64,000 nucleotides of DNA from positions 1 to 64,000 of the forward strand of contig JABSRN010000170.1 in the NCBI GenBank assembly GCA_013214025.1, read 5' to 3'. This DNA is from Polyangiaceae bacterium (GTDB lineage Bacteria > Myxococcota_A > Polyangia > Polyangiales > Polyangiaceae). Positions 7,638-51,592 of this stretch are shown piece after piece. The notes under the pieces were generated by a model that worked only from the letters and a program-made list of their open reading frames with translations, did not search any database and was not told where the DNA came from. The stretch's first letter is position 1. Every line of letters begins with the position of its first letter. A program made the translations under genes and the position numbers.

Positions 7638-9119
7638 GTGGAGGACGACGACGAATTCCTAGCGGCGATCGAAGCCCGCATTGGCACAACGCTTAACGGT
7701 AAGTACACGCTTAAGGCATTGCTTGGCGTGGGCGGCATGGCAGCCGTGTATCTGGCCATCCATCGGACGGGTCGGCGCTGTGCCATCAAAATGCTGCACA
7801 AAGGTGGCTCTGCCACGGACACTCAGATCAAGCGTTTTCGCCGGGAAGCCTACGCTGCCAACGCTCTGGAACATCCGGGCATCGTCGAGATTCAGGACGA
7901 TGATATCTCCGAAGACGGCGCTCCGTTCTTGGTCATGGAACTGCTGCGCGGTCGCACGCTCTCCGATGATATCGAGTCCGGGGGCATTCTCTCTGAGGAG
8001 CTGGCGTTCAACTACCTAGATCAGTGCCACGACGCATTGGGCGCTGCTCACGCGGCTGGGATTTTCCATCGGGACATCAAACCCGACAATATTTTTCTGT
8101 TGGAGACAGGGCGCATCAAGCTCCTGGATTTTGGCATTGCGACCCTTCACGAAGATGTCGCCGGTCTTACTGTAAAAACTGAGTACGGGACATTGATGGG
8201 CACGCCCGGGTTCATGGCGCCGGAGCAGGCTCGTGGTCGTTGGGACGAAGTCGACGGCCAGAGTGATATCTGGGCGCTTTCCGCGACATTCTTTCAGCTT
8301 GTCTCGGGTCAGACCGTGCACGAAGCCACCACGCGGAATGAGGCTTTGGGCTTGGCAATGGTAACGCCGGCTCGTTCGCTCCGAACGGTGTCTCCTCAGG
8401 CAAGTTCTCAGTTGGTTACGATTTTGGACAGAGCTTTGCCCTTCGAGAAGAAGGACCGTTTTGCTGACGCGTACGAGATGCAAGTGGCAGTTCGCGACGC
8501 CGCCCAGGAGCTGGGAATCGTGTTGCGTCCGAGTTTTCGACCCTTGAGCGGCCCGCGAGTGGGGTCGAGCCCGCATCGCGATCCGTCGAGTTCCACGCTC
8601 ACTCAGGGTGGGGCGCTGAGTGTGAACACCTCGGCTGCGACTGAATTGGGCTCCGTTCCACCCAAGGGCAAGCGGAGTGTCATGGCCGCCACTGGTGTCG
8701 GCTTGACGATGCTGGTGCTCGGAGCGGTGGCAGCGCTGACTTCGGGTGGTGGCGATGTCGAGGGTGATGGCGCGGCCGCCGCAGCGTCGGCTGTCGAGCT
8801 TCCGGTCCCGACCGGCCGCCAGGCGGTCGAGGTTCTCCCGACACCTGCTGTTTCTCCAGTGCCGTCTGTGTCAGCGCCTGTGCCGAGTGCGGAGGACCAC
8901 GAGCTCAAGGCCCCGACGCGAAAACCAATCGTGTTGCCAGCCCCTACCCTTAAAAAACCTGCGATTGTACCGAAACCCAAGCGGGTTTCAGTTAAACGGA
9001 AGCCGGTCGCGACATTCAGAAAGCCGCAGACTCGACCGAAAGCAGCGCCGCCCCCGCAGCCAAAAACGGTGCCGGTCACTGCCCCTGCAGCCCGCGATCC
9101 TCTCGACATTCGCTGGTGA
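7638..9119 (+). CDS. Ser/Thr protein kinase with membrane anchor and Pro-rich tail
   Basis: A 493-residue Hanks-type kinase. The N-terminal kinase domain (about 22-290) has a Gly loop LGVGGMAAVY, ATP-binding Lys51, catalytic HRDIKPDN (Asp146), DFG at 164-166 and APE in GFMAPEQ, so it should be active. A Ser/Thr-rich linker leads to one membrane segment at about 348-368. A Pro/Ala/Lys-rich tail then runs to RDPLDIRW, predicted extracytoplasmic. The start is GTG at 7638 with an AGGA upstream. The TPR-PEGA gene follows 74 bases later. The divergent FHA regulator would have been a natural phospho-Thr reader but is disrupted. Confidence 0.9.
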   Translation: MEDDDEFLAAIEARIGTTLNGKYTLKALLGVGGMAAVYLAIHRTGRRCAIKMLHKGGSATDTQIKRFRREAYAANALEHPGIVEIQDDDISEDGAPFLVMELLRGRTLSDDIESGGILSEELAFNYLDQCHDALGAAHAAGIFHRDIKPDNIFLLETGRIKLLDFGIATLHEDVAGLTVKTEYGTLMGTPGFMAPEQARGRWDEVDGQSDIWALSATFFQLVSGQTVHEATTRNEALGLAMVTPARSLRTVSPQASSQLVTILDRALPFEKKDRFADAYEMQVAVRDAAQELGIVLRPSFRPLSGPRVGSSPHRDPSSSTLTQGGALSVNTSAATELGSVPPKGKRSVMAATGVGLTMLVLGAVAALTSGGGDVEGDGAAAAASAVELPVPTGRQAVEVLPTPAVSPVPSVSAPVPSAEDHELKAPTRKPIVLPAPTLKKPAIVPKPKRVSVKRKPVATFRKPQTRPKAAPPPQPKTVPVTAPAARDPLDIRW

Positions 9120-9193
9120 TGCATTTGGCGCTCCCGCTGTCCCGGTGATAGCGTCGGGTCCTGCGAAACCTCATCAGCATTAATTTCTTATGG

Positions 9194-10135
9194 GTGTTGT
9201 TCTTATTCTTGCAGTCGGGCGTGGCTCAAGCGGGCGGATCGGCCACGGCCGAGGCTCTGTTTCGTGCTGGACGCCAAGCTGCGCAAGCCGGGGAGCACCG
9301 GGCCGCCTGTGCACGCTTCCGAGAGTCGCATCGCTTGGACCCCGCGCCCGGTACCCTGCTGAACATCGCCGTCTGTGAAGAGCAGCTTGGCGAGATCACC
9401 GAGGCTTGGCAACATTACCAGCAGGTCATTGACAGCGTGGCGCGATCGGACGGCCGCGCTCGGCTGGCGTCATCCTTACGGAAAAAGGTCGCGCCGCGAC
9501 TGCCCTGGCTGACGGTCAATGCCGCGCCGGGAGCCCCGGACGGATTGCAGCTAAAGCTCGGCGACCAAACTCTAGGAGGTGCGAGCCTCGGCGTGGCTCT
9601 CCCGGTGAACCCGGGCCACTACGACTTGGTAGTGAGTGCGCCAGGATATTCCCCACGACGTTATGCGGTGTCGCTAGTGGAGGGACAACGTGTAGAGATA
9701 GAAGTGGTCCCGGGCGATCCACTACCGGCGTCCTCCGAGACGGAGCTTGCAACGGGAGCTGGTGACTCAGCGCCGTCAGCGCCCCCGTCCGTGTCCGACA
9801 CTCCGGTATCGGCCTATGTCTTGATCGCTGCGGGCGGTGTCGGCGTGTTGGTAGGATTGGTCGGCGGCGTGCTCGCCTGGGATCGGAGCTCCCGGGTTGA
9901 AGAAGCGTGTCCGGGCGGAAGTTGTGAGTCACAGCAGCACGACGAGGCGCAGGGCTACCAGGAGGAATCCAAAGACTGGATGTTAGTGGGTGCCGTCGCC
10001 GGCGGTCTCGGAGTGATATCGGTCGGTACTGGTCTCTACCTCTGGAGCGGAGACTCCGGGGACGGGACATCGGCGATTCTGTCGCCGGTGGTCGCCAGCG
10101 ATAATTGGGGAGCCGCTCTGCAGGGGCGGTTCTAG
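9194..10135 (+). CDS. TPR-PEGA protein with two membrane segments
   Basis: A 313-residue protein: N-terminal signal-like segment cleaving near AQAGG, TPR-type helices (about 15-95), a PEGA-like beta domain (about 100-170), a Ser/Pro linker, then two hydrophobic helices (YVLIAAGGVGVLVGLVGGVL and MLVGAVAGGLGVISVGTGLY). The loop between them carries CPGGSC. The protein ends in SDNWGAALQGRF, and the terminal Phe recurs in two relatives in this window. Start is GTG at 9194; an ATG at 9190 lies in another frame. It follows the kinase gene and is probably its envelope partner. Function is unknown. Confidence 0.75.
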   Translation: MLFLFLQSGVAQAGGSATAEALFRAGRQAAQAGEHRAACARFRESHRLDPAPGTLLNIAVCEEQLGEITEAWQHYQQVIDSVARSDGRARLASSLRKKVAPRLPWLTVNAAPGAPDGLQLKLGDQTLGGASLGVALPVNPGHYDLVVSAPGYSPRRYAVSLVEGQRVEIEVVPGDPLPASSETELATGAGDSAPSAPPSVSDTPVSAYVLIAAGGVGVLVGLVGGVLAWDRSSRVEEACPGGSCESQQHDEAQGYQEESKDWMLVGAVAGGLGVISVGTGLYLWSGDSGDGTSAILSPVVASDNWGAALQGRF

Positions 10136-27827: not shown

Positions 27828-28859
27828 ATGGAGCGCGTTAGACTTACTGAGTTTGGGTGGGAACACTCATTGGTCACGGAAACCATGTTGGAGTTGCCCC
27901 ATCCGACGGGGCAACAAGTGCTGATCGATGTGGAAGCATGCGGTATTTGCCATCTTGATTTGATCACCCGAGAGGGCCGCTTGCCTTTCGTACCGCTGCC
28001 TGTGACTTTGGGGCACGAGGCGGTGGGGCGGATCACTAAAATTGGCGATGACGTTTCCGAATTTTCCGTCGGGGATCGTGTGGGGACGCTTTATCGCGAG
28101 ACCTGCGGTGAGTGCAGCCAATGCACGGTCGGCGACGAGTCCTTGTGCGAGGCTGCGAGCCACGTTCTTGGAGTGTTGGCGGATGGAGGATACGCGAGTC
28201 AGCTGCTGATGCCGCAGTCGGGACTGTTTCGCGTTCCGGAATCGCTGCCGCCTGAGCACGCAGCACAGCTGCATTGTCCCATGGGCACTACCTATCGTGA
28301 CCTGAAAGTCTTGGCCGGGGTGAGGCGAGGGCAGAGAGTCTTGGTTACCGGGGCGAATGGTGGTTGCGGTGCGGCGGGGGTCCAGATCGCCTCCAGGTTA
28401 GGGGCCGAGGTGATAGCGGTGGTTCGGGATTCGCGACACGTCGAGTCCTTACTAAGCTTGGGTGCCAGCCGTGTGGTGGTCGATCCAGGCTCGACGTTCC
28501 ACAAGAATCCTGCGGCGCTCGCCATCGATGTGGTGCTCGATACGGTAGGCCCGCCGACATTTAACTCATCGCTCCGATGTTTGCGCCGTGGTGGCACTCT
28601 CGTGGTCATTGGGAATGTCGACCCGGAACGGGTTTCTGTGAACTTGGGCTATCTGGTGACATCCGCGATTCGTGTGATCGGCGGCAGTGGTGCGACCCGG
28701 GCGGAAGTCGAGGAACTCTGTGCGCTGCATGAAGAATCGCCATTTCAGTTTCTTGTCGCCTCAGTGTTTCCCTTCTCTGAGGCGGATCAAGCCCAGCGTA
28801 AGGTCAAGGCAGGGGGGCTTTGCGGTCGCGTCGTTCTTGTGCCATCCCCGACGGCGTGA
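27828..28859 (+). CDS. Zinc-dependent alcohol dehydrogenase
   Basis: A 343-residue MDR-family dehydrogenase. Catalytic zinc ligands are Cys in ACGICHLD (about 36) and the His-Glu pair in LGHEAVGR. The structural zinc site is CGECSQCTVGDESLC. The nucleotide fold has GANGGCGAAGVQIA. It oxidises alcohols or reduces aldehydes with NAD(P); substrate unknown. ATG at 27828 is used; the frame extends upstream into the previous gene. Its TGA overlaps the GTG start of cofG (GTGA), so translation is coupled to F420 biosynthesis, an unexpected partner. Confidence 0.88.
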   Translation: MERVRLTEFGWEHSLVTETMLELPHPTGQQVLIDVEACGICHLDLITREGRLPFVPLPVTLGHEAVGRITKIGDDVSEFSVGDRVGTLYRETCGECSQCTVGDESLCEAASHVLGVLADGGYASQLLMPQSGLFRVPESLPPEHAAQLHCPMGTTYRDLKVLAGVRRGQRVLVTGANGGCGAAGVQIASRLGAEVIAVVRDSRHVESLLSLGASRVVVDPGSTFHKNPAALAIDVVLDTVGPPTFNSSLRCLRRGGTLVVIGNVDPERVSVNLGYLVTSAIRVIGGSGATRAEVEELCALHEESPFQFLVASVFPFSEADQAQRKVKAGGLCGRVVLVPSPTA

Positions 28860-30019
28860 AGTCTGGGTCCAGCGAACTTAGCCCCCAGCAAGCGCTTGCT
28901 CTCGCAACCGTGTCCGGCGCAGAACGAGAACGCCTGCGGCGACGGGCGGCCGACTTGCGTGACGAAGCGTGGGGGACACAGCTCACCTTCTCGCCGAAGG
29001 TATTTTTGCCGCTTACCAACCTGTGTCGGAACCGTTGTAGCTACTGCTCGTTTCGGAAGTCATCGGGCGATGCGGGGGAGTGGACCATGACGCACTCCGA
29101 GGTCGACGAATGGTTGGCCCGCGCCGCCAGTCAGGGATGTTGCGAGGCGTTGATTTGCATCGGCGATCGGCCCGAGACAGCTTTCCCTGCTTACGCCCGC
29201 ACTCTGTCTGCGATGGGTCATCGGAGTACGGCGGATTATCTGGTGTGGGCGTCGGAACGAGCGTTGAGCTACGGTCTGTTGCCGCACACCAATGCGGGCA
29301 TTCTTTCGGTTGAGGAAATGGCCCGGCTCCGTCCCAACAACGTCAGCATTGGCCTGATGTTGGAGAACATCAGTTCGCGCCTCTGTGAAAAGGGCATGCC
29401 CCATTACGAGGCTCCGGACAAACGCCCCGAGCGTCGCATGGCCATGTTACGGGAAGCCGGCGAGCTGGCGATTCCCATGACTACGGGCATTCTTGTGGGT
29501 ATCGGCGAGACACCGACGGAGCGGGTCGAAAGTCTATTGGCGATTCGCGAGCTTTCCCGTCGCTATGGTCACATTCAAGAAGTGATTGTTCAGAACTTCA
29601 CCGCCCGCCCCGAAATATCCATGAGTGATGCGACTGAGGCGGCGGATGAAGAATGGTCTCACGCAATCGTGTTAGCCCGCTTGATTCTGGATCCGGAAGT
29701 CAGCGTGCAGGCCCCACCCAATCTCAACGCTGGCCGTACTGAGCTACTCGTGCGTTCCGGAATTAACGATTTTGGCGGCATCTCGCCGGTGAGCGTAGAC
29801 TACATCAACCCCCGACACCCCTGGCCATTGCTCGAGGCCCTGCACGAATCGGTGGAAGGGCTCGGCTATCAGCTGGTTCCGCGACTTCCCATCTACCCGC
29901 GCTACATGACGCCGCAGTTCCTAGACTCGGGACTTCAGGGGCCGTTGCAAGAAGCTCGCGTGGGTTTGCGCATGCCGAAACGGGAGCACGCGGACCGCGT
30001 GAGCTTCGGGGTGCTGTGA
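28856..30019 (+). CDS. cofG: FO synthase subunit 1 (radical SAM)
   Basis: A 387-residue radical SAM enzyme. With CofH it joins 5-amino-6-ribitylamino-uracil and tyrosine into the deazaflavin FO, the chromophore of coenzyme F420. The cluster motif is C57-RNR-C61-SY-C64 (CX3CX2C). Other family blocks are PLTNLCRNRCSYCSF, TTGILVGIGET and QNFTARP. Length is normal for a CofG (actinobacteria often fuse CofG and CofH as FbiC; here they are separate). Start GTG at 28856 overlaps the ADH stop. Its own stop overlaps the cofH start in the same GTGA manner. Confidence 0.93.
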   Translation: MKSGSSELSPQQALALATVSGAERERLRRRAADLRDEAWGTQLTFSPKVFLPLTNLCRNRCSYCSFRKSSGDAGEWTMTHSEVDEWLARAASQGCCEALICIGDRPETAFPAYARTLSAMGHRSTADYLVWASERALSYGLLPHTNAGILSVEEMARLRPNNVSIGLMLENISSRLCEKGMPHYEAPDKRPERRMAMLREAGELAIPMTTGILVGIGETPTERVESLLAIRELSRRYGHIQEVIVQNFTARPEISMSDATEAADEEWSHAIVLARLILDPEVSVQAPPNLNAGRTELLVRSGINDFGGISPVSVDYINPRHPWPLLEALHESVEGLGYQLVPRLPIYPRYMTPQFLDSGLQGPLQEARVGLRMPKREHADRVSFGVL

Positions 30020-31296
30020 GTTTGCCGAATTCGACAACTACGGCGTTGGCTCAGGCTTCGGAGCCGTGTCGTGCGGTGCTGGAGCGATGCCTCGACGGGG
30101 AAGAACTCGGCGTGAACGATGCCGTCACGCTGTTGTCTGCGTTTGCTTCTGATCTGGACGCGCTGGGCGCCGTGGCGAATCATCTGCGCTCGGAGCAGGC
30201 CGGCGACGTCGCCAGCTATGTGATCAATCGAAATATCAATTTTACGAACGTCTGCATCAAGTCCTGTAAATTCTGTGCATTCTCTCGAGTCCACCGATCG
30301 GAGGAAGGCTATTTTTTGCCCAAGGTAGAAATACTGCGCCGTGTATCCGAGGCGGTGGACTATGGAGCGACCGAGGTGTGCCTCCAAGCCGGGCTGGCGC
30401 CGAGCATGGATAGCGGCTTCTATTTGCGCTTGATTGAGGGCATTCGCGATCTCCACCCGGAGCTCCACATTCACGCCTTGTCGCCCGAAGAGCTGAAGCA
30501 TGGGGCTCAGCTGACCGGACAAAGCATTCGGGAGTTCTTGGTGGATCTCAAATCGGCGGGTCTGGGCACCATCCCCGGCACCAGTGCTGAAATCCTAGAT
30601 GATGCCGTTCGCGCCCGACTCAGCGGTGGCAGAATTACAACTCAAGAGTGGATAGACGTAGTGAGTGCAGCCCACGAACTGGGCATCCGCAGCTCGGCGA
30701 CCATCATGTTTGGTCATTTGGAGGCGCCCTCCCATGTAGCGGCTCATCTGGCGAGCCTGCGAACGCTGCAGCGGCGCACAGGTGGTTTTACCGAGTTCGT
30801 TCCACTGTCGTTTGTCTCCAGTGAGGCTCCGCTGTATTTGAAACAGCTCGTTCCCGGAGTGCGCGCTGGGCCGTCGACCGACGAGCTGCTGGCGGTCTAT
30901 GCCGTGTCGCGACTCATGTTGGGTCGAGAATTTGTGAATCTGCAGGCTTCCTGGGTGAAGCTTGGGCTCCCGATGGCCACGCGGCTCTTGCAGTGGGGAG
31001 CCAATGACCTAGGCGGGACGCTGATGAATGAGAGCATCTCAACGGCGGCGGGGGCTGACCACGGGCAGTTTCTCCGACCCACGCAGCTTCGCTCTGCGAT
31101 CGCCGCCGCCGGACGCACGCCCATCCAGCGAGACACGGTGTACAGGGAATTACGGCGATTTTCTTCGGACGAACTGGGCCCCTCGGATCGGCTCGACGGC
31201 GTGACTTCAGCGAGTCACTTTGGTTCCCTGGAGGCTCTCACGCGAGGCAAACAGTTTCGCTACGAGCTGGGCCGAGAGCCGCAGCTTCGGCGTTGA
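30016..31296 (+). CDS. cofH: FO synthase subunit 2 (radical SAM)
   Basis: A 426-residue radical SAM protein, the tyrosine-activating partner of CofG in FO synthesis. The cluster motif is C80-IKS-C84-KF-C87 within NFTNVCIKSCKFCAFSR. CofH/MqnC-like blocks follow: ALSPEEL, GLGTIPGTSAEIL, ATIMFGHLE and TEFVPLSF. The N-terminal 60 residues match the short helical lead of CofH. GTG start at 30016 overlaps the cofG stop by four bases. It converges on cofC with only 21 bases between the stops and no clear terminator hairpin. Confidence 0.93.
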   Translation: MSLPNSTTTALAQASEPCRAVLERCLDGEELGVNDAVTLLSAFASDLDALGAVANHLRSEQAGDVASYVINRNINFTNVCIKSCKFCAFSRVHRSEEGYFLPKVEILRRVSEAVDYGATEVCLQAGLAPSMDSGFYLRLIEGIRDLHPELHIHALSPEELKHGAQLTGQSIREFLVDLKSAGLGTIPGTSAEILDDAVRARLSGGRITTQEWIDVVSAAHELGIRSSATIMFGHLEAPSHVAAHLASLRTLQRRTGGFTEFVPLSFVSSEAPLYLKQLVPGVRAGPSTDELLAVYAVSRLMLGREFVNLQASWVKLGLPMATRLLQWGANDLGGTLMNESISTAAGADHGQFLRPTQLRSAIAAAGRTPIQRDTVYRELRRFSSDELGPSDRLDGVTSASHFGSLEALTRGKQFRYELGREPQLRR

Positions 31297-34564: not shown

Positions 34565-35596
34565 CTAGCTGTCGGCGAGCTCCGCCATCAGTCGAATCGC
34601 TTCGGGTTGTTGGGTGTTCAGCAGCATGCTGGTGACCGGCGAATCCTTCCAGGTGGCGAAGCGCTCCGTGATTCGCTCCTTAGGTCCCACCAGGTAAAAG
34701 GCATCGACTAGCTGATCGGGGACCAAGCTGAGGGCTTCCTTAGGGCGGCCCGCCAAATAGGCATCTTGAATTTTCTCGCATTCGGTGACGAAACCTAAGG
34801 AGCTGATGTAGTCCTTGTAAAAATTCTTGTCCTTAGCCCCCATTCCGCCGATGTAGAGAGAAAGCTGAGCCTTCATCGGTTTACGTAGGGCATCCAGATC
34901 GTCGCCGACTGAGACCATCACCGTCGCGGCTATGTCGAACTGGCTCGTCTGCTTGCCGGGGCTCCGAGCGAAGCCCCTATCGAGGCTCTTCTGCACGACG
35001 TCGAACTTGTCGGGGTTGGTGAAGATCAAGCTGAGCCCGTCACAGATCTCGCCGCACTGGGCGATGCTCCGGGGCGTGATGGACCCGGTGTAAATGGGAA
35101 TGTCGGGACGGCCCCGCAGAATGCATTTCAGGGGTTTCCCGAGGCCGAGGGCATCGTCACCCTTGTACGGGATCTGGAAGTACTCACCGTCGAATTGCAG
35201 CTTCTCTTCCCGGGCAAAGATGGCCCGTAGGATTGTGATGTACTCGCGGGTGTAGGTGAGGGGTTTTTTCGGGAAGGGTTTGCCGTGCCATCCCTCGATC
35301 ACCTGGGGACCCGAGAGGCCCAAGCCTAGGATGAGTCGACCGCCGCTAAGCGCGTCCAACGTCATGGCGCTCATGGCGGTCATCGCGGGAGTTCGCGCCA
35401 ACATCTGCACGATGGAACTCCCAATCTTGAGCTTCGTGGTTTTCGCCGCCATCCAACTGATGCTGGTGATGGCGTCCGAGCCCCATGCCTCCGAGTTCCA
35501 GACGGAATCGAAGCCCAGGGATTCTGCTTCGAGTACGAGATCCATATCCACCTTCGCCGTCGCGCCGATGGGACCTGCCAACAGACCTAGTCGCAT
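34565..35596 (-). CDS. LLM-class F420-dependent oxidoreductase
   Basis: A 343-residue luciferase-like TIM barrel. The first strands read MRLGLLAGP and LEAESLGFDSVWNSEAWG, followed by SGGRLILGLGLSGP and IPIYTGSITPRS, typical of F420-binding members rather than FMN ones. Length is normal. The next gene upstream on the same strand, the flavin/2Fe-2S reductase, ends 48 bases before this start, so they probably form an operon. It is convergent with npdG, which would supply reduced F420. Substrate is unknown; mycobacterial relatives act in lipid, sterol and xenobiotic redox reactions. Confidence 0.88.
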   Translation of the reverse strand: MRLGLLAGPIGATAKVDMDLVLEAESLGFDSVWNSEAWGSDAITSISWMAAKTTKLKIGSSIVQMLARTPAMTAMSAMTLDALSGGRLILGLGLSGPQVIEGWHGKPFPKKPLTYTREYITILRAIFAREEKLQFDGEYFQIPYKGDDALGLGKPLKCILRGRPDIPIYTGSITPRSIAQCGEICDGLSLIFTNPDKFDVVQKSLDRGFARSPGKQTSQFDIAATVMVSVGDDLDALRKPMKAQLSLYIGGMGAKDKNFYKDYISSLGFVTECEKIQDAYLAGRPKEALSLVPDQLVDAFYLVGPKERITERFATWKDSPVTSMLLNTQQPEAIRLMAELADS

Positions 35597-39230: not shown

Positions 39231-40805
39231 ATGTCTGACCATGAAGGCGCCCCTGATCCCGGCGAATCGAAATCCGGTTCGTGGCCGCGCGCTGTTGATG
39301 AGCCGAAGTCAGACGTGCGCGCCAGCGAAGTAGTGCGCAGCTCAGCTCGTTATCAAGCTGGGGATCTGGTCGAGGGTAAGTATCGACTCCTGCACAAACT
39401 GGGGCAGGGGGGCATGGGCACTGTTTGGCGTGCCCGCAACGAGACTTTGGAATTTGATGTTGCGCTCAAAGTCATCAGCAAGGTCGCCGAGGAAGAGGAG
39501 GACGCCGAGTCCAGTCCTACTGGCGCATCGCGAGCCAGCTCTCGACCTGCGGACCGATTGCTACAGGAAGCGAAAACAGCGGCGCGCCTAGGGCATCCCG
39601 CCATCGTGCGAATTTTCGACTTCGGCAAAACCGCCGCCGGCGATCCGTTTATCGTCATGGAGCTGCTGGACGGCTGCGATTTAGGGGCGGCTCTAGCGAA
39701 GAAGGGTCGGCTGAGCCCCGTGAAAGCGGTGCGCACCCTCTTGCCGATCGCGCACGCCCTGGCGATGGCCCACGACAAGCAGATCGTGCATCGGGATCTC
39801 AAGCCAGAAAACATCTTCTTGGCGAATTCAGATGATGGCCAAGTGCGCCCCACTCTGGTGGACTTCGGTGTCGCGAAATTCGAGCGTCAGATAGGCAATC
39901 GATTGACGCAGACCGGCGCATTGCTGGGTAGTCCCGCCTATATGTCGCCGGAGCAGGCCCGGGGCGACGAGGTGGATTCTCGCGCTGATATCTGGGCGTT
40001 TTCGGTTGTGTTGTATGAGTGTGTTACTGGGCGCGCGCCGTTCGAGGGCAAGAACTACAACGCCCTGCTATTTTCCATCGTCTCAGTAGAACCCGAGAGC
40101 ATTCGTGCTTTCTCCGCCGGCGATGACGAGCTCTGGGCGATTCTCCAGCGCGGGTTCAAGAAGAATCCCGACGAACGCTGGCAGTCTCTGCGAGAGATGG
40201 CCGTAGTGCTCGCTCGGTGGCTCAAGGATAGGAATGTGCACGAAGACATCACCGGCGCGTCGCTGAATATGAGCTGGCTCGCCCAGAGCGGTCGAGCCAG
40301 CTTCAGCACGGTGCCGCCCCCACGCTTGGACGAAGCTTCGCCGGCCGCGTGGGATGTTGCAACGGATGCGGGTTCGCCCTTGCCACTGGCCGACCGGCTG
40401 CGGCGTGTGCCAAAGCACAAGTTGTGGGCAGCCGGCGCGGCGACTGCGGCGCTTTTGCTCGGCGGTGCGCTAGCACTCTCGTTGTCAGGAGACGCAGAGA
40501 CTCCGGCTGCCAAGCACGAGCCAGCGCCGGCTGTGTCGCCAACTGTGTCTGGTGTGCCCGTCGAAACGGTTGAGCCGCCAGGTCCTTTCCCCCAACCCGT
40601 GGCGGCGCCAGTACCGGCACAGCCCCCGGCGATCAAGACCGTCGAAGCTGTGCTTGCGCGCACACCGTCGCCCCCCGCAGCTCGGCCGAGCGCTCCAGCC
40701 GAATCAACCAAGGCTCTGGCGGTCCCGAAATTGCCGCGGCGCCGGCTGAAGGCACCGAAAATTGAGGCGCGAAAGCGAACTCTCAAAGACCCCTTCGCAA
40801 AATGA
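39231..40805 (+). CDS. Ser/Thr protein kinase with membrane anchor and Pro-rich tail
   Basis: A 524-residue kinase. ATG at 39231 (MSDHEGAPD) is chosen; the frame opens earlier at 38919 inside the permease gene. Kinase landmarks: LGQGGMGTVW, ALKVI, HRDLKPEN, DFGVAKF, SPEQARG. An acidic/Ser insert (EEEEDAESS) follows the ATP-binding Lys. After the kinase come a linker, one membrane helix (GAATAALLLGGALALSL), then a Pro/Ala-rich extracytoplasmic tail ending RTLKDPFAK. It parallels the kinase at 7638 in layout. The TPR-PEGA gene starts 14 bases after its stop. Confidence 0.9.
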   Translation: MSDHEGAPDPGESKSGSWPRAVDEPKSDVRASEVVRSSARYQAGDLVEGKYRLLHKLGQGGMGTVWRARNETLEFDVALKVISKVAEEEEDAESSPTGASRASSRPADRLLQEAKTAARLGHPAIVRIFDFGKTAAGDPFIVMELLDGCDLGAALAKKGRLSPVKAVRTLLPIAHALAMAHDKQIVHRDLKPENIFLANSDDGQVRPTLVDFGVAKFERQIGNRLTQTGALLGSPAYMSPEQARGDEVDSRADIWAFSVVLYECVTGRAPFEGKNYNALLFSIVSVEPESIRAFSAGDDELWAILQRGFKKNPDERWQSLREMAVVLARWLKDRNVHEDITGASLNMSWLAQSGRASFSTVPPPRLDEASPAAWDVATDAGSPLPLADRLRRVPKHKLWAAGAATAALLLGGALALSLSGDAETPAAKHEPAPAVSPTVSGVPVETVEPPGPFPQPVAAPVPAQPPAIKTVEAVLARTPSPPAARPSAPAESTKALAVPKLPRRRLKAPKIEARKRTLKDPFAK

Positions 40806-40819
40806 ACTAGGATACCTAG

Positions 40820-41887
40820 GTGTTGGCAGTGTGCGATTCAGTCGGCCGCGCTCATCGGCTACCGCTGGGGGTCGGAGGGGTAATGCTGATGTTGACGTTG
40901 GCACCAGCCGCCGCAGCTCAGCCTGAGGCTGACTCTACGGCTGACGATTTCGAAGAAGTGAGGTCTCAGAAACAGGACGGCGAGAACGCGGACCCCGAGA
41001 AAGAAGACCGGGCACGGGCGCTCTACGCTCAGGGCGCGGAGGCCTACGAGGAAAAGCGCTACAAGGACGCGATAGACCATTTCTTGGCCGCAGGCCGACT
41101 GATTCCCAACCCGGTATTTTCCTACAACATCGGTCTCGCCTACGACGACATGGGCGATGACGCGAGCGCGTTGAGTTACTACCGGGACTATGTGCGCCGG
41201 TCGCCAGAAGCTGACGATCTTGCGGAGGTGGAGGAGCGTATTGTCGCTCTCGCCGAGGGTTTGGAGAAAAAGGGGATCCAACAAGTCACGGTCGCCTCGG
41301 AGCCCGCTGGCGCTCGGGTCAGCGTAGACGGCCAGCCCCGGGGCATCACTCCGTGGACCGGCGAGTTATCGCCGGGTTCCCATTCGGTAACGATTCAACT
41401 GCAAGGATACGCCGATTCCCGCGCGAAATTTGAGCTGAGACGTGACCGCCCGGCATTTGTAGAGGTCTCCCTACACTCGGAGCGCAAAGCTGTGCCAGCG
41501 GCCAAGCCGGTCCCAGTCCTGGAGAACCCGAAACCGCCACCCACACCCCATATTCGACCCTTCACTTGGGCGGCATATGGCGTCGGCGCGGCCGCTCTGG
41601 GCGCGTCGATGGCATTTGAGTTTGGGCGTTCCAGCGCGGAGGATGCCGCCCGTGACTCCAAACTGCAAGTGGAAGCGGAGAGCCAATGGGATACCGCGGA
41701 GAGCCGCATGTTGACCTCTCGGGTGTTCGCGGGAGCCGGCCTCATGTTTGTCGCCTTGGCCGGTGTGTTGACCTACCGCGATCTCAATCGCCCCGATACC
41801 GATCGCAGCGATCAGCTGGCGGCGCTGCGGTGGAGTGTTGGTTGTGGCCCGGATGGTTGTGGCGCAAATTACCGAGGGAGTTTCTGA
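40820..41887 (+). CDS. TPR-PEGA protein with two membrane segments
   Basis: A 355-residue protein: signal segment (VMLMLTLAPAAAAQ), charged spacer, TPR repeats (about 60-135), a clear PEGA domain (TVASEPAGARVSVDG ... SHSVTIQLQGY), a Pro linker, then two helices (AAYGVGAAALGASMAFEF and FAGAGLMFVALAGVLTY). It ends with CGANYRGSF, again a terminal Phe. GTG start at 40820. It lies directly after a kinase and one base before the Cys-rich lipoprotein frame, so all three are probably one operon. Confidence 0.78.
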   Translation: MLAVCDSVGRAHRLPLGVGGVMLMLTLAPAAAAQPEADSTADDFEEVRSQKQDGENADPEKEDRARALYAQGAEAYEEKRYKDAIDHFLAAGRLIPNPVFSYNIGLAYDDMGDDASALSYYRDYVRRSPEADDLAEVEERIVALAEGLEKKGIQQVTVASEPAGARVSVDGQPRGITPWTGELSPGSHSVTIQLQGYADSRAKFELRRDRPAFVEVSLHSERKAVPAAKPVPVLENPKPPPTPHIRPFTWAAYGVGAAALGASMAFEFGRSSAEDAARDSKLQVEAESQWDTAESRMLTSRVFAGAGLMFVALAGVLTYRDLNRPDTDRSDQLAALRWSVGCGPDGCGANYRGSF

Positions 41888-41888
41888 A

Positions 41889-42680
41889 GTGCCGTCTCGT
41901 TTGACTCGATCCGGCTGTGTTGCGGTCGCCCTATGGCTAGCGGGAGCGTGTGCCAATATTTCCCGAGACGAAGCCCTCGCCGGAAAGAGCTGCAGTCCGT
42001 CTGGGGCGTGCTCTGGCGGCTACGTGTGCGTGAACTTGATTTGTGTACTGCCGGGGGCGGCAGACTCGGATGCTTCGGGCGGTAGCGCGGGTGGAGTTTC
42101 GAGTGGCGGTGCTGCTGGCAGCATCGCCAGTGGTGGTGTAGCTGGCAGCGTCTCAACCGGAGGTGCCTTGACCGGCGGTGTCGGAGGTGGAGTTGGGGGC
42201 GCCACTGGCGGCTCGTCTACTGAAGAGGCGGGAGTGCCGGATGCGACACTGCCGGACGCCTCGCCGGACGCCGCTGTCCCGGACGCCAGCGATGGTGGAC
42301 AGAACGTCTCTAGAGTGGATGTGGTCGCCTGTGGCACCGAACAAAATGCCTTCAACTGCGCACGTGGGGAAGTTTGCTGTTTCCCCACTGACGGGCAAAC
42401 CCCCGTTTGCGCGGAAACGCTCAACGATTGTGCCGACTGCGGCGGGTTCTGCAGCTATGAGGGCATCCGGTCGGCCTGCGATGGCCCAGAAGATTGCGAC
42501 GACGGTGAATATTGCTGTCACGAAGACGATGGCACGGAGGAGACCCGGGAATGCACCTCGACCTGTTTCGTCTGGGAAGGCGACGACCATTGTTCGGCAG
42601 AAGACGACTCTATGTGCGGTAGTGGCGGTTGTGCCGAGAGCGGCTGGCCGAACGCTGAATACTCCTATTGCGTCAACTAA
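41889..42680 (+). CDS. Cys-rich Gly/Ser-linker lipoprotein
   Basis: A 263-residue predicted lipoprotein. GTG at 41889 is followed by a signal with lipobox LAGAC. A small Cys motif (CSPSGACSGGYVC) precedes a Gly/Ser/Val-rich linker. The C-terminal 110 residues hold about 16 Cys in spaced pairs (for example CADCGGFC, CCHEDD), implying a disulfide-rich extracytoplasmic domain. No family is recognised. The start is one base after the TPR-PEGA stop codon. It is probably exported to the outer membrane as part of the kinase/TPR module. Confidence 0.75.
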   Translation: MPSRLTRSGCVAVALWLAGACANISRDEALAGKSCSPSGACSGGYVCVNLICVLPGAADSDASGGSAGGVSSGGAAGSIASGGVAGSVSTGGALTGGVGGGVGGATGGSSTEEAGVPDATLPDASPDAAVPDASDGGQNVSRVDVVACGTEQNAFNCARGEVCCFPTDGQTPVCAETLNDCADCGGFCSYEGIRSACDGPEDCDDGEYCCHEDDGTEETRECTSTCFVWEGDDHCSAEDDSMCGSGGCAESGWPNAEYSYCVN

Positions 42681-42765: not shown

Positions 42766-44436
42766 GTGCTCGCGACAGTGTTGGTATTCGGTGTGGGCTT
42801 CGGTTCTATGGCGAAGCGTATCCACCTGCCAAGCGTAACGGGGCAAATCCTCGCGGGCATGGTGATCGGCCACGCGGGTTTCGGCATCTTCGACGAAAGT
42901 GGCGTCCAGTCCCTGTCGCCGCTGACGGATTTCGCCATTGGTTTGATGGCGGTATCCGTTGGGGCGCACTTGAACGTGCGTCGCCTGCGAAACGCGAGGA
43001 AGCGCTTGCTGACTCTGCTGGTGTTGGAATCATTGTTGATTCCGGGGTTGGTGTTCGGGGTCGCCATGCTGTTTCCGGGCATGAACTGGAGTTTCGCCTT
43101 GTTGTTTGGCACCATCGCCATTTCGACGGCGCCGGCCACCATCGTTGCGGTTGTTAAGGAGACGCGGTCCAAAGGCGTGTTTGTAAAAACGCTGATCGCT
43201 GCGGTGGCGCTCAACAATCTGTCGTGCATGTTCTTCTTTGAATTGGCTCGGGCTGCGGCGCATGTGCAGACCGGCGCCGCAGGGATTGGCGATATGCTCG
43301 AGGCGCCCTTTGTCCAGCTCATATGCTCTGCGGCCATCGGTTGTGGCGCCGCGTTGTCGATGACCTTGATTCATCGATTGTTCTCCAAGCCGGAACTGAT
43401 AGCGACGGGGGGGCTAGCAACGCTTACGCTCACCATTGGGCTCGCGACTCACTTTGATGTCTCGCCCTTGCTGTCCTGCCTGTTTTTGGGGTTTACCCAA
43501 GCGAATGTGAACCGGGACCGCAATCGCATCGTCGATTCCATTTTCTCCAACTGGGAACCTGCGATTCTAGCGACCTTCTTTACCCTGGCGGGCATGGATC
43601 TCACCCTGGAGCATGCCAAGAGCGGAGGGGTACTAGCTCTCGGATTTGTGTTGGCGAGGGCAGGAGCCAAATATCTGGCAGCGGGTTGGGCGATGCGTAT
43701 TGCCGGCGCTACGGAGAAAGTTCGAAAGAACCTGGGCCTAGCGCTGGTGCCTCAAGCCGGAATTGCCGTCGGCTTGGTGATCTTGTTGGACAAGGATCCC
43801 ACATTGCAAAGCTCGGCCGGGGAACTGGTGAGTCTGTTTCACGCGGTGGTGCTGAGCGCGGTGGTGCTCAACGAAGTCGTGGGTCCGATTCTTACTCGTG
43901 TGGCTCTGGCTCGCTCCGGAGAGATGGGCAATGACCGAACTCGATTGATCGATTTTCTTCAGGAAGAAAACATCGTCACTACTCTGCCCTCCGGTAGCAA
44001 AGAGGAGGTCATCGAAGCGTTGGTGGACGTGTTGATCGCGTCTCACGATCTGCCTTCGGATGTGAGACAGCCTCTGTTGGAGTCGGTACTGGCACGAGAA
44101 GCGGATGTCTCAACCTGCCTAGGCGCAGGCCTGGCGGTGCCCCACGGGATACTTCCGGAAGGTTACGAAATGGTCGGTGTGATGGGCTTGAGTCGCGAGG
44201 GGCTTCCTTTCGATTCACCGGACGGCAAACCGGTCCACTGCATTGTCGTTCTGGGCACTCCCGATACCGAGCGCGATCGGCACTTGCAGGTCTTAGCGGC
44301 GCTAGCCCGATCGGTCGGGAATCCGCAAATGTCTGCCCGACTGTTCGCTTCTGAAAGCCCCGGCCATGCTTACGAGATACTACATGACGAGGAGGCGGAA
44401 GATTTTAACTACTTCCTCGACGAGCAACTGACCTAA
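42766..44436 (+). CDS. Cation:proton antiporter fused to a PTS EIIA domain
   Basis: A 556-residue protein. Residues 1-380 form a CPA2-type antiporter of about 12 helices (LPSVTGQILAGMVIG, GTIAISTAPATIVAVVKET). Residues 391-540 are a PTS EIIA type-2 domain with the phospho-accepting His460 in LAVPHGIL. A RCK/TrkA regulatory domain, common in KefB types, is absent. PTS phosphorylation could gate ion exchange by nutrient status. GTG at 42766 falls at the first helix; the frame is open to 42691 with no standard start, so translation may begin slightly upstream from a rare codon. Confidence 0.85.
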   Translation: MLATVLVFGVGFGSMAKRIHLPSVTGQILAGMVIGHAGFGIFDESGVQSLSPLTDFAIGLMAVSVGAHLNVRRLRNARKRLLTLLVLESLLIPGLVFGVAMLFPGMNWSFALLFGTIAISTAPATIVAVVKETRSKGVFVKTLIAAVALNNLSCMFFFELARAAAHVQTGAAGIGDMLEAPFVQLICSAAIGCGAALSMTLIHRLFSKPELIATGGLATLTLTIGLATHFDVSPLLSCLFLGFTQANVNRDRNRIVDSIFSNWEPAILATFFTLAGMDLTLEHAKSGGVLALGFVLARAGAKYLAAGWAMRIAGATEKVRKNLGLALVPQAGIAVGLVILLDKDPTLQSSAGELVSLFHAVVLSAVVLNEVVGPILTRVALARSGEMGNDRTRLIDFLQEENIVTTLPSGSKEEVIEALVDVLIASHDLPSDVRQPLLESVLAREADVSTCLGAGLAVPHGILPEGYEMVGVMGLSREGLPFDSPDGKPVHCIVVLGTPDTERDRHLQVLAALARSVGNPQMSARLFASESPGHAYEILHDEEAEDFNYFLDEQLT

Positions 44437-49001: not shown

Positions 49002-50456
49002 TCACAGAGTCTCTTGCTCGGGCAAGCAGAGGCGGTGCCGGGTGACGTGCAATTCGTCTCCGCTGCCGTCGGCGGCGGCTTGGATCCAAGTGGTCACTAC
49101 TTTGTCGGGTGCCACGATGGCGACGTGAGGTGAGCGGGGGACTCGGGCCGTGTCGTTTTCGCCCAAGCTCACCGTTCCGAGACTGCGTGAGGCGCCGGCT
49201 TCGGGGTCGTCAATTTGTATGGATCCTTGTAGCTCGAGCACGCCGGTTGAATCGACAATGCTGGGGGTCACCGAGACGAAGTAACTCACGTAGTCGGGAT
49301 CCTGTTGACGAGTTGTGTGAGCGAAGACCGAGCTGTACTGGTCGGCAATGACCGAAGCGTTCTCCGACCCGCAGGTGAAGGGTTTGATGCATCCTGCGTC
49401 AGGGATGCACTGAACAATGCCGAACTCCGAACTGATGGGATCCACCTGGGTGAAACTGGCGAACCAAAACGCGTCGGTGGTGCCTAGTCTGGCGGTGGAG
49501 AGAGAGACCAAGGTGTGGGGCGAAGCCCCGCACTGCTCGAGCAAGCTGCTCGTGTTGTCGCCCTCCGCTTGAGCACGAAGTTCGCCGCTGGCGTTCGTCC
49601 ATAGAACGGCGGCTCCGCCTGCGGTGTCCGTCATCGCGGCCACATCGAGGACGGACTCGCCCGGCGCCATGTCCGGCGTTGCCGGATCCGCGTAGGCGAT
49701 TATGGAGCGGCCGCCCGGGTGAAGGTACAAGCCGGTCTCCGCCGATCGCCAGGCGGCGCGCAGTTCATTGTTGTTGAGTTGCCACACGACGGGGTGTCTC
49801 TGACGATCCGCCAAATAGAGGGGAACCTGGGTAACGCTGCGCGCGTCGGTCACTGTCAGGTTGGCGCCGAACTCGAAGCGGGCGATTTTGGCAGCCCCGG
49901 ACAGCGAATCACCGATGGCGGCATAGCCGACGAGTTGGAAGGGGCTGGTGCCAGCGACTACCATGCCGAGGGCGCTTACCGGTGTCGTGGTCGCCGCTTC
50001 TGCTTCCGGGATGCCGGATAGCTCGATGGCGTCGACTGACGTCGGGAGCCCTAGCGTCGTAGCGGTGTCGGTGAACTGATAAATTTCCGTATCATGCACT
50101 TCACTGTCACTCTTGAAGACCGAGACGAAGAAGGTGTTGTTGCTTGCCACGAGCGTGGACTGATGGATTTCATCGGCCACGAGTGGGTCAAATATTCTGT
50201 CTTCGACGATTCTGACTTTGGCGTCGTGCACGCACTCGCCGTCGCTGTCGCAGTAGTCGTCGGTGCAGGGGTCGGTGTCCTTACACGATTCCGCAGTGCA
50301 AATTTCCACTGGGGCAGCGTCGTTCCCCGGCGTACTGGCGTCTTGTCCGAGCTCAGTGGTCTCGGTCTGCAGCTCCTCAAAGTCGAACCAGAAGGAGCAG
50401 CCGGTAGTCGCGAATAACGCGATCGCGCCCAACCGTGAAAGGTGGGTGGCCGGCAT
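49002..50456 (-). CDS. Cys-containing lipoprotein, possible beta-propeller
   Basis: About 484 residues. ATG at 50456 (MPATHLSRLG) precedes a signal with lipobox ATTGC. A Cys-rich knot follows (CTAESCKDTDPCTDDYC, then CVHD), after an acidic spacer. The remaining 400 residues are beta-rich with repeats of the type VVAGTSPFQLVGYAAIG and FWFASFTQVD, suggesting a propeller-like fold; family not recognised. Its start codon overlaps the stop of the TPR gene (TGATG), so the two are translationally coupled. This parallels the TPR plus Cys-rich lipoprotein pair at 40.8-42.7 kb. Confidence 0.75.
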   Translation of the reverse strand: MPATHLSRLGAIALFATTGCSFWFDFEELQTETTELGQDASTPGNDAAPVEICTAESCKDTDPCTDDYCDSDGECVHDAKVRIVEDRIFDPLVADEIHQSTLVASNNTFFVSVFKSDSEVHDTEIYQFTDTATTLGLPTSVDAIELSGIPEAEAATTTPVSALGMVVAGTSPFQLVGYAAIGDSLSGAAKIARFEFGANLTVTDARSVTQVPLYLADRQRHPVVWQLNNNELRAAWRSAETGLYLHPGGRSIIAYADPATPDMAPGESVLDVAAMTDTAGGAAVLWTNASGELRAQAEGDNTSSLLEQCGASPHTLVSLSTARLGTTDAFWFASFTQVDPISSEFGIVQCIPDAGCIKPFTCGSENASVIADQYSSVFAHTTRQQDPDYVSYFVSVTPSIVDSTGVLELQGSIQIDDPEAGASRSLGTVSLGENDTARVPRSPHVAIVAPDKVVTTWIQAAADGSGDELHVTRHRLCLPEQETL

Positions 50457-51319
50457 CAGAAACTCCACCGCGCTTGAGTGCTCGCCTGATGGGGCGAGAA
50501 TTTTACGCCCCAGTCGGGAGTGTAGCTAGCGGCGTCGGCGGTCACCTCAGGGCTGGAGTAGAACCAAAAGTAGGCACCCAGGGCACCGCCCGCGACGGCG
50601 ACCACTGTCAGAACAGTACTGGTCGTGGCCATTCGTGTGCCCGTCGATACCTCGTCGTCGGTGCAGGTGGGGCTGCAGGCTCCTTCGGCGCTGCTATACT
50701 CGCTGGCGGCGACCAAGCCGGTGATCAGCGAACCCAGGGCGGCGACTCCTCCCAAGCTCAAGGACACGTAGGCCCAGGTTCGGTCCGGCTCGTCCGCGGC
50801 GGCGGCGGGCGGCGGCGGCGGCTCTGGACTCGTCTTTTCCTCGGTCTCTGCGGGGGCGGGGGCTGTCATGGCTTCCGCCGCTCGCTGCTCGTCGAGACGT
50901 TTTTGTAAGTTGTCGCGGCGGAGCTTCAACGTACCAATCCGTTCACTCTCTGGAGCCGCAGCGATGAACTTGTTGATGGCGGAAATCGCGTGTTCCCAGT
51001 CGCCGGTGCGCTCGTGAACAAGGGCTAGGTTGAGCAAGATTTCTGGACGCTCCGATAGCTCGTAGGATTTTTTGAACTCGCGTAGCGCGGACTCGTAGTC
51101 GGACTGTTCGAGATAGGACGCACCGGACTCGAAGTGTCGGCGAGCCAGCTCGTCCGTCTGGCTTTGTCCGGCAGCCGGCAGAACAAAAATCAGCTGCAAA
51201 CCTAGACAGATGAGGGCGGTGTTCCAGAACTGGCGGCTGTAGCGGCGTCTGGGGGCAAGCGGGCAGCGGGACGAGCGCCCCAGGAGGAGGCGGGCCGGCT
51301 GAGAGTTGAGCGGCGACAT
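50456..51319 (-). CDS. TPR protein with two membrane segments
   Basis: About 287 residues. ATG at 51319 with an excellent AGGAG ribosome binding site; the frame extends to 51409 without support. A signal-like helix (ALICLGLQLIFVLPAAG) leads into TPR repeats (about 60-140), a Glu/Pro linker, then two helices (SLGGVAALGSLITGLVA and TVLTVVAVAGGALGAYFWF) with CSPTC in the loop between. It ends QASTQARWSF, again with a terminal Phe. No PEGA domain is seen. Related in layout to the proteins at 9194 and 40820. No kinase is adjacent. Confidence 0.75.
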   Translation of the reverse strand: MSPLNSQPARLLLGRSSRCPLAPRRRYSRQFWNTALICLGLQLIFVLPAAGQSQTDELARRHFESGASYLEQSDYESALREFKKSYELSERPEILLNLALVHERTGDWEHAISAINKFIAAAPESERIGTLKLRRDNLQKRLDEQRAAEAMTAPAPAETEEKTSPEPPPPPAAAADEPDRTWAYVSLSLGGVAALGSLITGLVAASEYSSAEGACSPTCTDDEVSTGTRMATTSTVLTVVAVAGGALGAYFWFYSSPEVTADAASYTPDWGVKFSPHQASTQARWSF

Positions 51320-51592
51320 GAGATCTCCTTTTACGGCGCGCAGGCCGCTCGATCGACGGAGGACACGTCGACAGACCCCGATTTGGGGTGGAATTAGCGA
51401 AGAAAGCAATATTTCTGCTACTTCTGGCCGGAAGCGGAATGGGGGCCCGGCCGGCGGTTTGGCGAGGTGGAAATCCGCGTGTGGGAAGCTCCGCGGGCGG
51501 CGGAGAAGTGGGCCCTATTTCCCGAGTGGTCGTGCTAGGTCGGCGGGTAGCGCGCGTTTCAGCTACCCCGCCCTCGGCGCGCCGGAAAATCT

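Follow-up and report, generated by a model that had tools for sequence, protein, structure and literature searches.

A conserved kinase, TPR-PEGA protein and Cys-rich lipoprotein gene set in a Polyangiaceae bacterium: a candidate envelope signalling device

Introduction

Myxobacteria possess some of the largest sets of eukaryote-like kinases. Among described systems, PASTA-type Hanks kinases (PknB/Stk1, NF033483) join a cytosolic Hanks kinase to one transmembrane helix and an extracytoplasmic part, an architecture shared by the kinase described here. In tomato, the Cys-rich ligand STIG1 is linked to LePRK2, a receptor kinase of pollen; repeats of the STIG1-like family (PF04885) are carried by the lipoproteins that accompany relatives of our kinase, although not by the copy described here. 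TPR proteins that bind C-terminal peptides (Hop, CHIP, Tom71) have, by Foldseek, the same fold as the TPR-PEGA protein of this locus, which has an invariant Asn at position 6 of its second TPR; the kinase, the putative partner at this locus, has a conserved free C-terminus. The classical TPR carboxylate clamp of Hop consists of five residues: K, N, N, K and R. Finally, other myxobacterial kinase-TPR pairs likewise place a kinase with a transmembrane helix and a Pro-rich tail ahead of an exported TPR protein.

Here, we analyse a locus within a 64,000-nucleotide stretch of the genome of a Polyangiaceae bacterium (the window; source genome 5.77 Mb, 97% complete), in which a transmembrane kinase, a TPR-PEGA protein and a Cys-rich lipoprotein are encoded in succession. 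No published description of this module was found in the open literature searched, a scope outside which most subscription journals lie. Its clearest new feature is a conserved motif at the C-terminal end of the kinase.

Results

Three genes lie on the forward strand, and the original prediction had placed them, with the gaps of exactly 14 nt between kinase and TPR-PEGA genes and 1 nt between TPR-PEGA and lipoprotein genes, at precisely the coordinates confirmed here. The genes and their parts are as follows.

39231..40805, + strand: Hanks-type Ser/Thr kinase, transmembrane, 524 aa, ATG start (open reading frame list, Pfam, intact motifs)
40428..40490, + strand: the one transmembrane helix predicted in the kinase, at roughly residues 400-420 (19-residue hydropathy, 1.82)
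40491..40802, + strand: kinase tail of about 105 aa, Cys-free, rich in Pro, Ala, Lys, Ser and Thr (61% of residues), predicted periplasmic
40782..40802, + strand: C-terminal peptide LKDPFAK, an instance of the conserved L-[KMLI]-x-P-[YF] end motif
40820..41887, + strand: TPR-PEGA protein of 355 aa with a GTG start, a predicted signal peptide and CxxxxC...GSF at its C-terminus
40994..41269, + strand: TPR domain, residues 59-150, with invariant Asn103 and Arg122 (AlphaFold2 pLDDT about 93-98, alignment)
41279..41470, + strand: PEGA domain, residues 154-217, preceded by a near-invariant GVQQ hinge (Pfam, alignment, AlphaFold2)
41558..41788, + strand: two long helices, residues 247-278 and 283-323, a predicted membrane hairpin (AlphaFold2, hydrophobic stretches)
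41889..42680, + strand: Cys-rich lipoprotein, 263 aa, GTG start (translation)
41949..42059, + strand: lipid-proximal module with lipobox Cys21 and Cys35, 41, 47 and 52 (CANISRDEALAGKSCSPSGACSGGYVCVNLICVLPG) (profile match)
42060..42323, + strand: Gly/Ser/Ala-rich linker (translation; imperfect DNA repeats)
42324..42677, + strand: variable Cys-rich tip with 18 Cys, not Stig1-like (weak relatives only)

A Shine-Dalgarno-like AGGA lies 7 nt before the GTG of the TPR-PEGA gene, and a GAGG about 10 nt before that of the lipoprotein gene. A scan of the locus for promoters and terminators returned nothing exceeding shuffled sequences. The short gaps and the conserved gene order described below make the three genes a candidate operon, that is, a single transcript. 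Directly after the module (42766-44436) the window encodes a fusion of a Na+/H+ exchanger domain with a PTS EIIA type 2 domain. Elsewhere it carries adjacent cofG and cofH genes (28820-31296 and 34565-35596; F420 precursor synthesis) near a luciferase-like monooxygenase, which hints at F420 use.

Conservation of the gene order was assessed across 183 genomes of the taxonomic order by a search with the TPR-PEGA protein, in which orthologs scored at E < ~1e-31 before a jump to paralogs at 1e-22. For the profile scan of contigs an alignment of close relatives was used, the broad alignment being too diverse. At 28 of the 40 ortholog loci fetched, a kinase gene on the same strand lies directly upstream; two of the other 12 have too little upstream sequence and four have a convergent kinase alongside, so that a kinase in any arrangement neighbours the TPR-PEGA gene at 32 loci. 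Among the 36 loci whose downstream sequence extends for 1.5 kb or more, 24 have a same-strand Cys-rich gene within 500 nt downstream, as compared with 14 of the 320 other genes in the fetched loci (Fisher 6e-19), and 12 do not have one directly downstream. The full three-gene order is present at twenty loci besides the window, and since the flanking genes differ between most loci, it is not part of a long conserved block. Judged by these counts, order and adjacency are conserved across the taxonomic order beyond chance. The original prediction had named a lack of gene-order conservation, along with absence of interaction, as what would refute it; the survey finds the order kept.

The upstream gene encodes a Hanks-type (eukaryotic-like) Ser/Thr kinase: the match to PF00069 (6e-41) is above the curated Pfam cut-off, and the catalytic Lys, HRD and DFG are present (VALK, HRDLKPEN, DFG). 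With 90 Pkinase matches, the source genome has a high kinase density. In all 27 orthologous kinases from complete pairs, a transmembrane helix is followed by a Cys-free tail of 81-157 aa rich in Pro, Ala, Lys, Ser and Thr. These tails are of low complexity and variable length, yet their last residues are conserved, with ends such as DLMSPY, DLKKPY, DLLNPY and LKNPF beside the LKDPFAK of the window kinase. The pattern L-[KMLI]-x-P-[YF] occurs within the last nine residues of 20 of 29 upstream kinases, against an expectation of 0.006 from shuffled tails. This regular expression was written after inspection of the kinase ends, and the independent part of the result is thus the test of exclusivity on other kinases: 25 of 41 kinases at TPR-PEGA ortholog loci carry the motif (a count that takes in convergently arranged pairs), compared with none of 91 kinases elsewhere, most of them from the window's own genome (p = 2e-16). 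Because kinases near TPR-PEGA genes are related to each other, this exclusivity partly reflects shared descent. The four convergent kinases beside TPR-PEGA genes also carry the motif, so that it tracks the partner rather than the transcript, although the relatedness of these kinases contributes. At three loci (L059, L062 and L066), further kinases next to the module end in a variant, DL[MI]AP[ED]YA[KR]; at L062 this kinase sits after the lipoprotein gene and the usual upstream kinase is missing. Evolutionary distances among the kinases correlate with those among the TPR-PEGA proteins (r = 0.69; permutation maximum 0.30).

Both domains of the middle protein exceed their Pfam cut-offs (PEGA, 7e-13, 48.7 bits against 20.8; TPR_2, 4e-7, 30 bits against 27), which makes it a TPR-PEGA protein. 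AlphaFold2, run with 16 sequences, models the TPR domain and the PEGA sandwich with confidence (block pLDDT about 92-98); the model also has a long hairpin of two helices and, at the C-terminus, a small beta hairpin. Structural neighbours of the TPR part found by Foldseek include designed TPRs and several TPRs solved with C-terminal peptides (such as 3fp4, 3kd7 and 9dya). Asn103, at position 6 of the second TPR, is invariant in 24 of 24 aligned sequences and occupies the position of the clamp Asn in Hop. A Hop-type carboxylate clamp was nevertheless rejected, with only this one of its five positions kept; the residues at the others (Y69, A73, D133 and V137) differ and are unconserved.

The third protein has a lipobox (LAGAC) with its Cys at residue 21, as expected of a bacterial lipoprotein, and this Cys is invariant in 18 aligned relatives. 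It contains 24 Cys, 18 of them in the tip, and has no match to any Pfam or NCBIfam family. Downstream partners at other loci share its base, in which the lipobox Cys is followed by L.GK.C...C..GY.C...C; in the alignment of 18 sequences, the six invariant columns are five Cys and one Gly. A profile of this N-terminal module built without the window protein matches the window lipoprotein at ~9e-8, placing it among the module lipoproteins, and an alignment that includes it (A3) gives 1.6e-12 to the same module. When all genes of the fetched loci, including the surroundings of the source genome's kinases, were scanned with the profile, every stronger match was a lipoprotein of such operons. Across the family, 38 matches fall below 1e-8, and 23 of these are located downstream of a TPR-PEGA ortholog at a distance of no more than 441 nt; of the remainder, one stands behind a TPR fragment at the end of a contig, and tandem or same-contig copies account for several. 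Weaker members occur elsewhere in the phylum.

Past the base, most relatives carry long arrays of Stig1-like repeats, reaching up to 1066 aa and 168 Cys. The partner lipoprotein of one locus (L051) matches PF04885 at 9e-49 in eight stretches. At L047, L051, L067 and others, from different genera, the repeats are spaced 47-47-43 residues, forming a 137-residue three-unit super-repeat. In the window lipoprotein neither a PF04885 match nor any NCGxCG repeat was found, so it does not belong to the STIG1-like family; its tip is short and of another kind, with weak relatives only (best 6.6e-5, in 4 other genomes). A search with the whole lipoprotein found only itself in the source genome and weak partial matches elsewhere, and single-sequence AlphaFold2 reached a pLDDT of 44. 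The partner lipoproteins thus have a constant base and a variable head. At three loci (L052, L053 and L057), two or three Cys-rich lipoprotein genes stand in tandem behind one kinase-TPR-PEGA pair, the first two encoding proteins of ~1000 aa with ~160 Cys each.

The kinase and TPR-PEGA genes had also been read as repeating a layout at 7.6-10.1 kb of the window. Loosely, this stands, as a kinase-TPR pair is found there (7638-10135), but it is a distant pair and not a second copy. Between the two loci, identity amounts to 32% for the kinases (over 437 aa) and to 24% for the TPR proteins (over 160 aa); at 7638-10135 the PEGA match falls below the Pfam cut-off (16.4 bits against 20.8), the kinase ends in DPLDIRW, and there is no lipoprotein. 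It was therefore rejected as a true second copy. The pair described here is the sole member of its ortholog group found in the source genome, where the next best TPR protein scores 100 bits against 403, and six other kinases in that genome are directly followed by a TPR gene.

TPR genes are also found next to lipoprotein genes when no kinase is present, as for several in the source genome. In the window, a third exported TPR protein (50456-51409, minus strand) overlaps by 13 nt the gene of a lipoprotein (49002-50468, minus strand) with an ATTGC lipobox, a short Cys-rich base and then a large domain; no kinase is annotated adjacent to this pair. At five loci (L213, L216, L219, L220 and L221), TPR-PEGA paralogs are followed by Cys-rich lipoproteins of other families, with mature starts such as CSVIVEG or CELIASVD. 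A lipoprotein gene follows TPR-PEGA genes outside the ortholog group in 5 of 12 and 5 of 14 cases, against a background of 39 of 388 (p ~0.01), by a strict lipobox scan that undercounts. This suggests that TPR-lipoprotein pairs are a broader theme, and the link between TPR-PEGA protein and lipoprotein may be broader than that with the kinase.

Discussion

The conserved gene order, the co-divergence of kinase and TPR-PEGA protein (correlation well above the permutation maximum) and a lipoprotein module restricted mainly to such operons support the operon and three-part unit of the original prediction; at the level of sequence, the unit can be called well supported. Because the set recurs across related bacteria with varying surface parts and a conserved kinase tag, it probably represents a signalling device, so far uncharacterised, that works from the outside inwards.

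A specific form of this proposal, which we favour tentatively, is a signalling complex of the envelope: the tail of the kinase would dock on a periplasmic TPR-PEGA protein, which would itself be coupled to the lipoprotein. The kinase would be embedded in the inner membrane, its catalytic domain facing the cytosol and its flexible tail reaching into the periplasm. Its C-terminal peptide (DLxxPY-COOH or LKxPF; here LKDPFAK) may dock on the TPR(-PEGA) domain of the exported partner, which would be held at the inner membrane by its C-terminal helix hairpin. The docking idea arises from the conserved free C-terminus of the kinase and the peptide-binding fold of the TPR-PEGA protein, not from a recognised clamp; as the four other clamp positions are unconserved, docking would need a different mode. 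The lipoprotein, anchored through its five-Cys module, would contact the TPR-PEGA protein and present a fast-changing Cys-rich stalk or tip; with the tip as presumed input, it would pass on a signal that originates at the cell surface or in the outer envelope. Ligand or contact would then alter kinase clustering or activity.

The direction of the signal is something we infer. The original prediction had the lipoprotein as a sensor reporting inward, a claim that our results do not support and that stays conjectural; as TPR-PEGA proteins are linked to lipoproteins without kinases as well, the reverse direction or an adaptor or chaperone role is possible. The same broader link keeps alive a rather unlikely alternative in which the TPR-PEGA protein serves mainly as an adaptor or chaperone in the periplasm for the Cys-rich lipoprotein, assisting the folding, disulphide pairing or delivery of this surface protein, with the kinase as an optional regulator and the signal running from inside to outside. 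Partners with 100-168 Cys would need folding help, and TPR-PEGA genes outside the ortholog group precede lipoprotein genes above background, including the minus-strand pair of the window. However, the ortholog group retains an adjacent kinase in 32 of 40 loci and the kinase end motif is exclusive to it, whereas a pure chaperone needs no dedicated kinase with a conserved periplasmic end.

That the lipoprotein is instead an output is distinctly improbable. In this reading it would be a surface rod, structural or adhesive, that senses nothing, with the kinase controlling how much of it is made or exposed. The long Stig1-like arrays with their regular 47-47-43 spacing do look rod-like, and tandem lipoprotein genes in single operons (L052, L053 and L057) would fit such a product, but the window lipoprotein has no repeats, an exported protein is no obvious target for a cytosolic kinase, and the only exported part of the kinase is its disordered tail. 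That the three genes are unrelated chance neighbours with no functional link is scarcely credible: short intergenic gaps are common in bacteria, and nothing further speaks for it, but gene-order conservation refutes it in the main, the order being kept across many genera with divergent flanks, alongside co-divergence and a module-specific lipoprotein domain.

Returning to the envelope signalling complex, a further and more doubtful extension is that it forms a receptor built of separate parts, in which the kinase C-terminal peptide is read by the TPR-PEGA protein and lipoproteins with a constant base and hypervariable Cys-rich heads, often of Stig1 repeats, provide the variable component. Ligand or kin recognition would be a possible role for such a system, of which some genomes contain several paralogous copies. 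The constant base and variable head resemble other recognition systems in design. For one group of kinases, the module provides candidate partners and a concrete peptide-docking hypothesis. If this is right, orphan kinases could be matched to their inputs through the kinase end motif and the neighbouring adaptor.

Compared with PASTA kinases, the window kinase scores 249.5 bits against the NF033483 cut-off of 450, the match spans the kinase domain only, and Pfam finds no PASTA repeats in it, so it falls outside that family; in their place it has a low-complexity tail whose end is conserved, and the presumed adaptor is a protein of its own. Hop, CHIP and Tom71 differ in their clamp, of which one position in five is kept here, and the kinase end peptide is not EEVD-like. 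Other myxobacterial kinase-TPR pairs are distant in sequence, have other kinase ends and lack a lipoprotein of the module family. The occurrence of Stig1 repeats next to a kinase can be compared with that of plant STIG1 and LePRK2, its receptor kinase. The bacterial kinase has no LRR ectodomain, and the parallel is one of analogy only.
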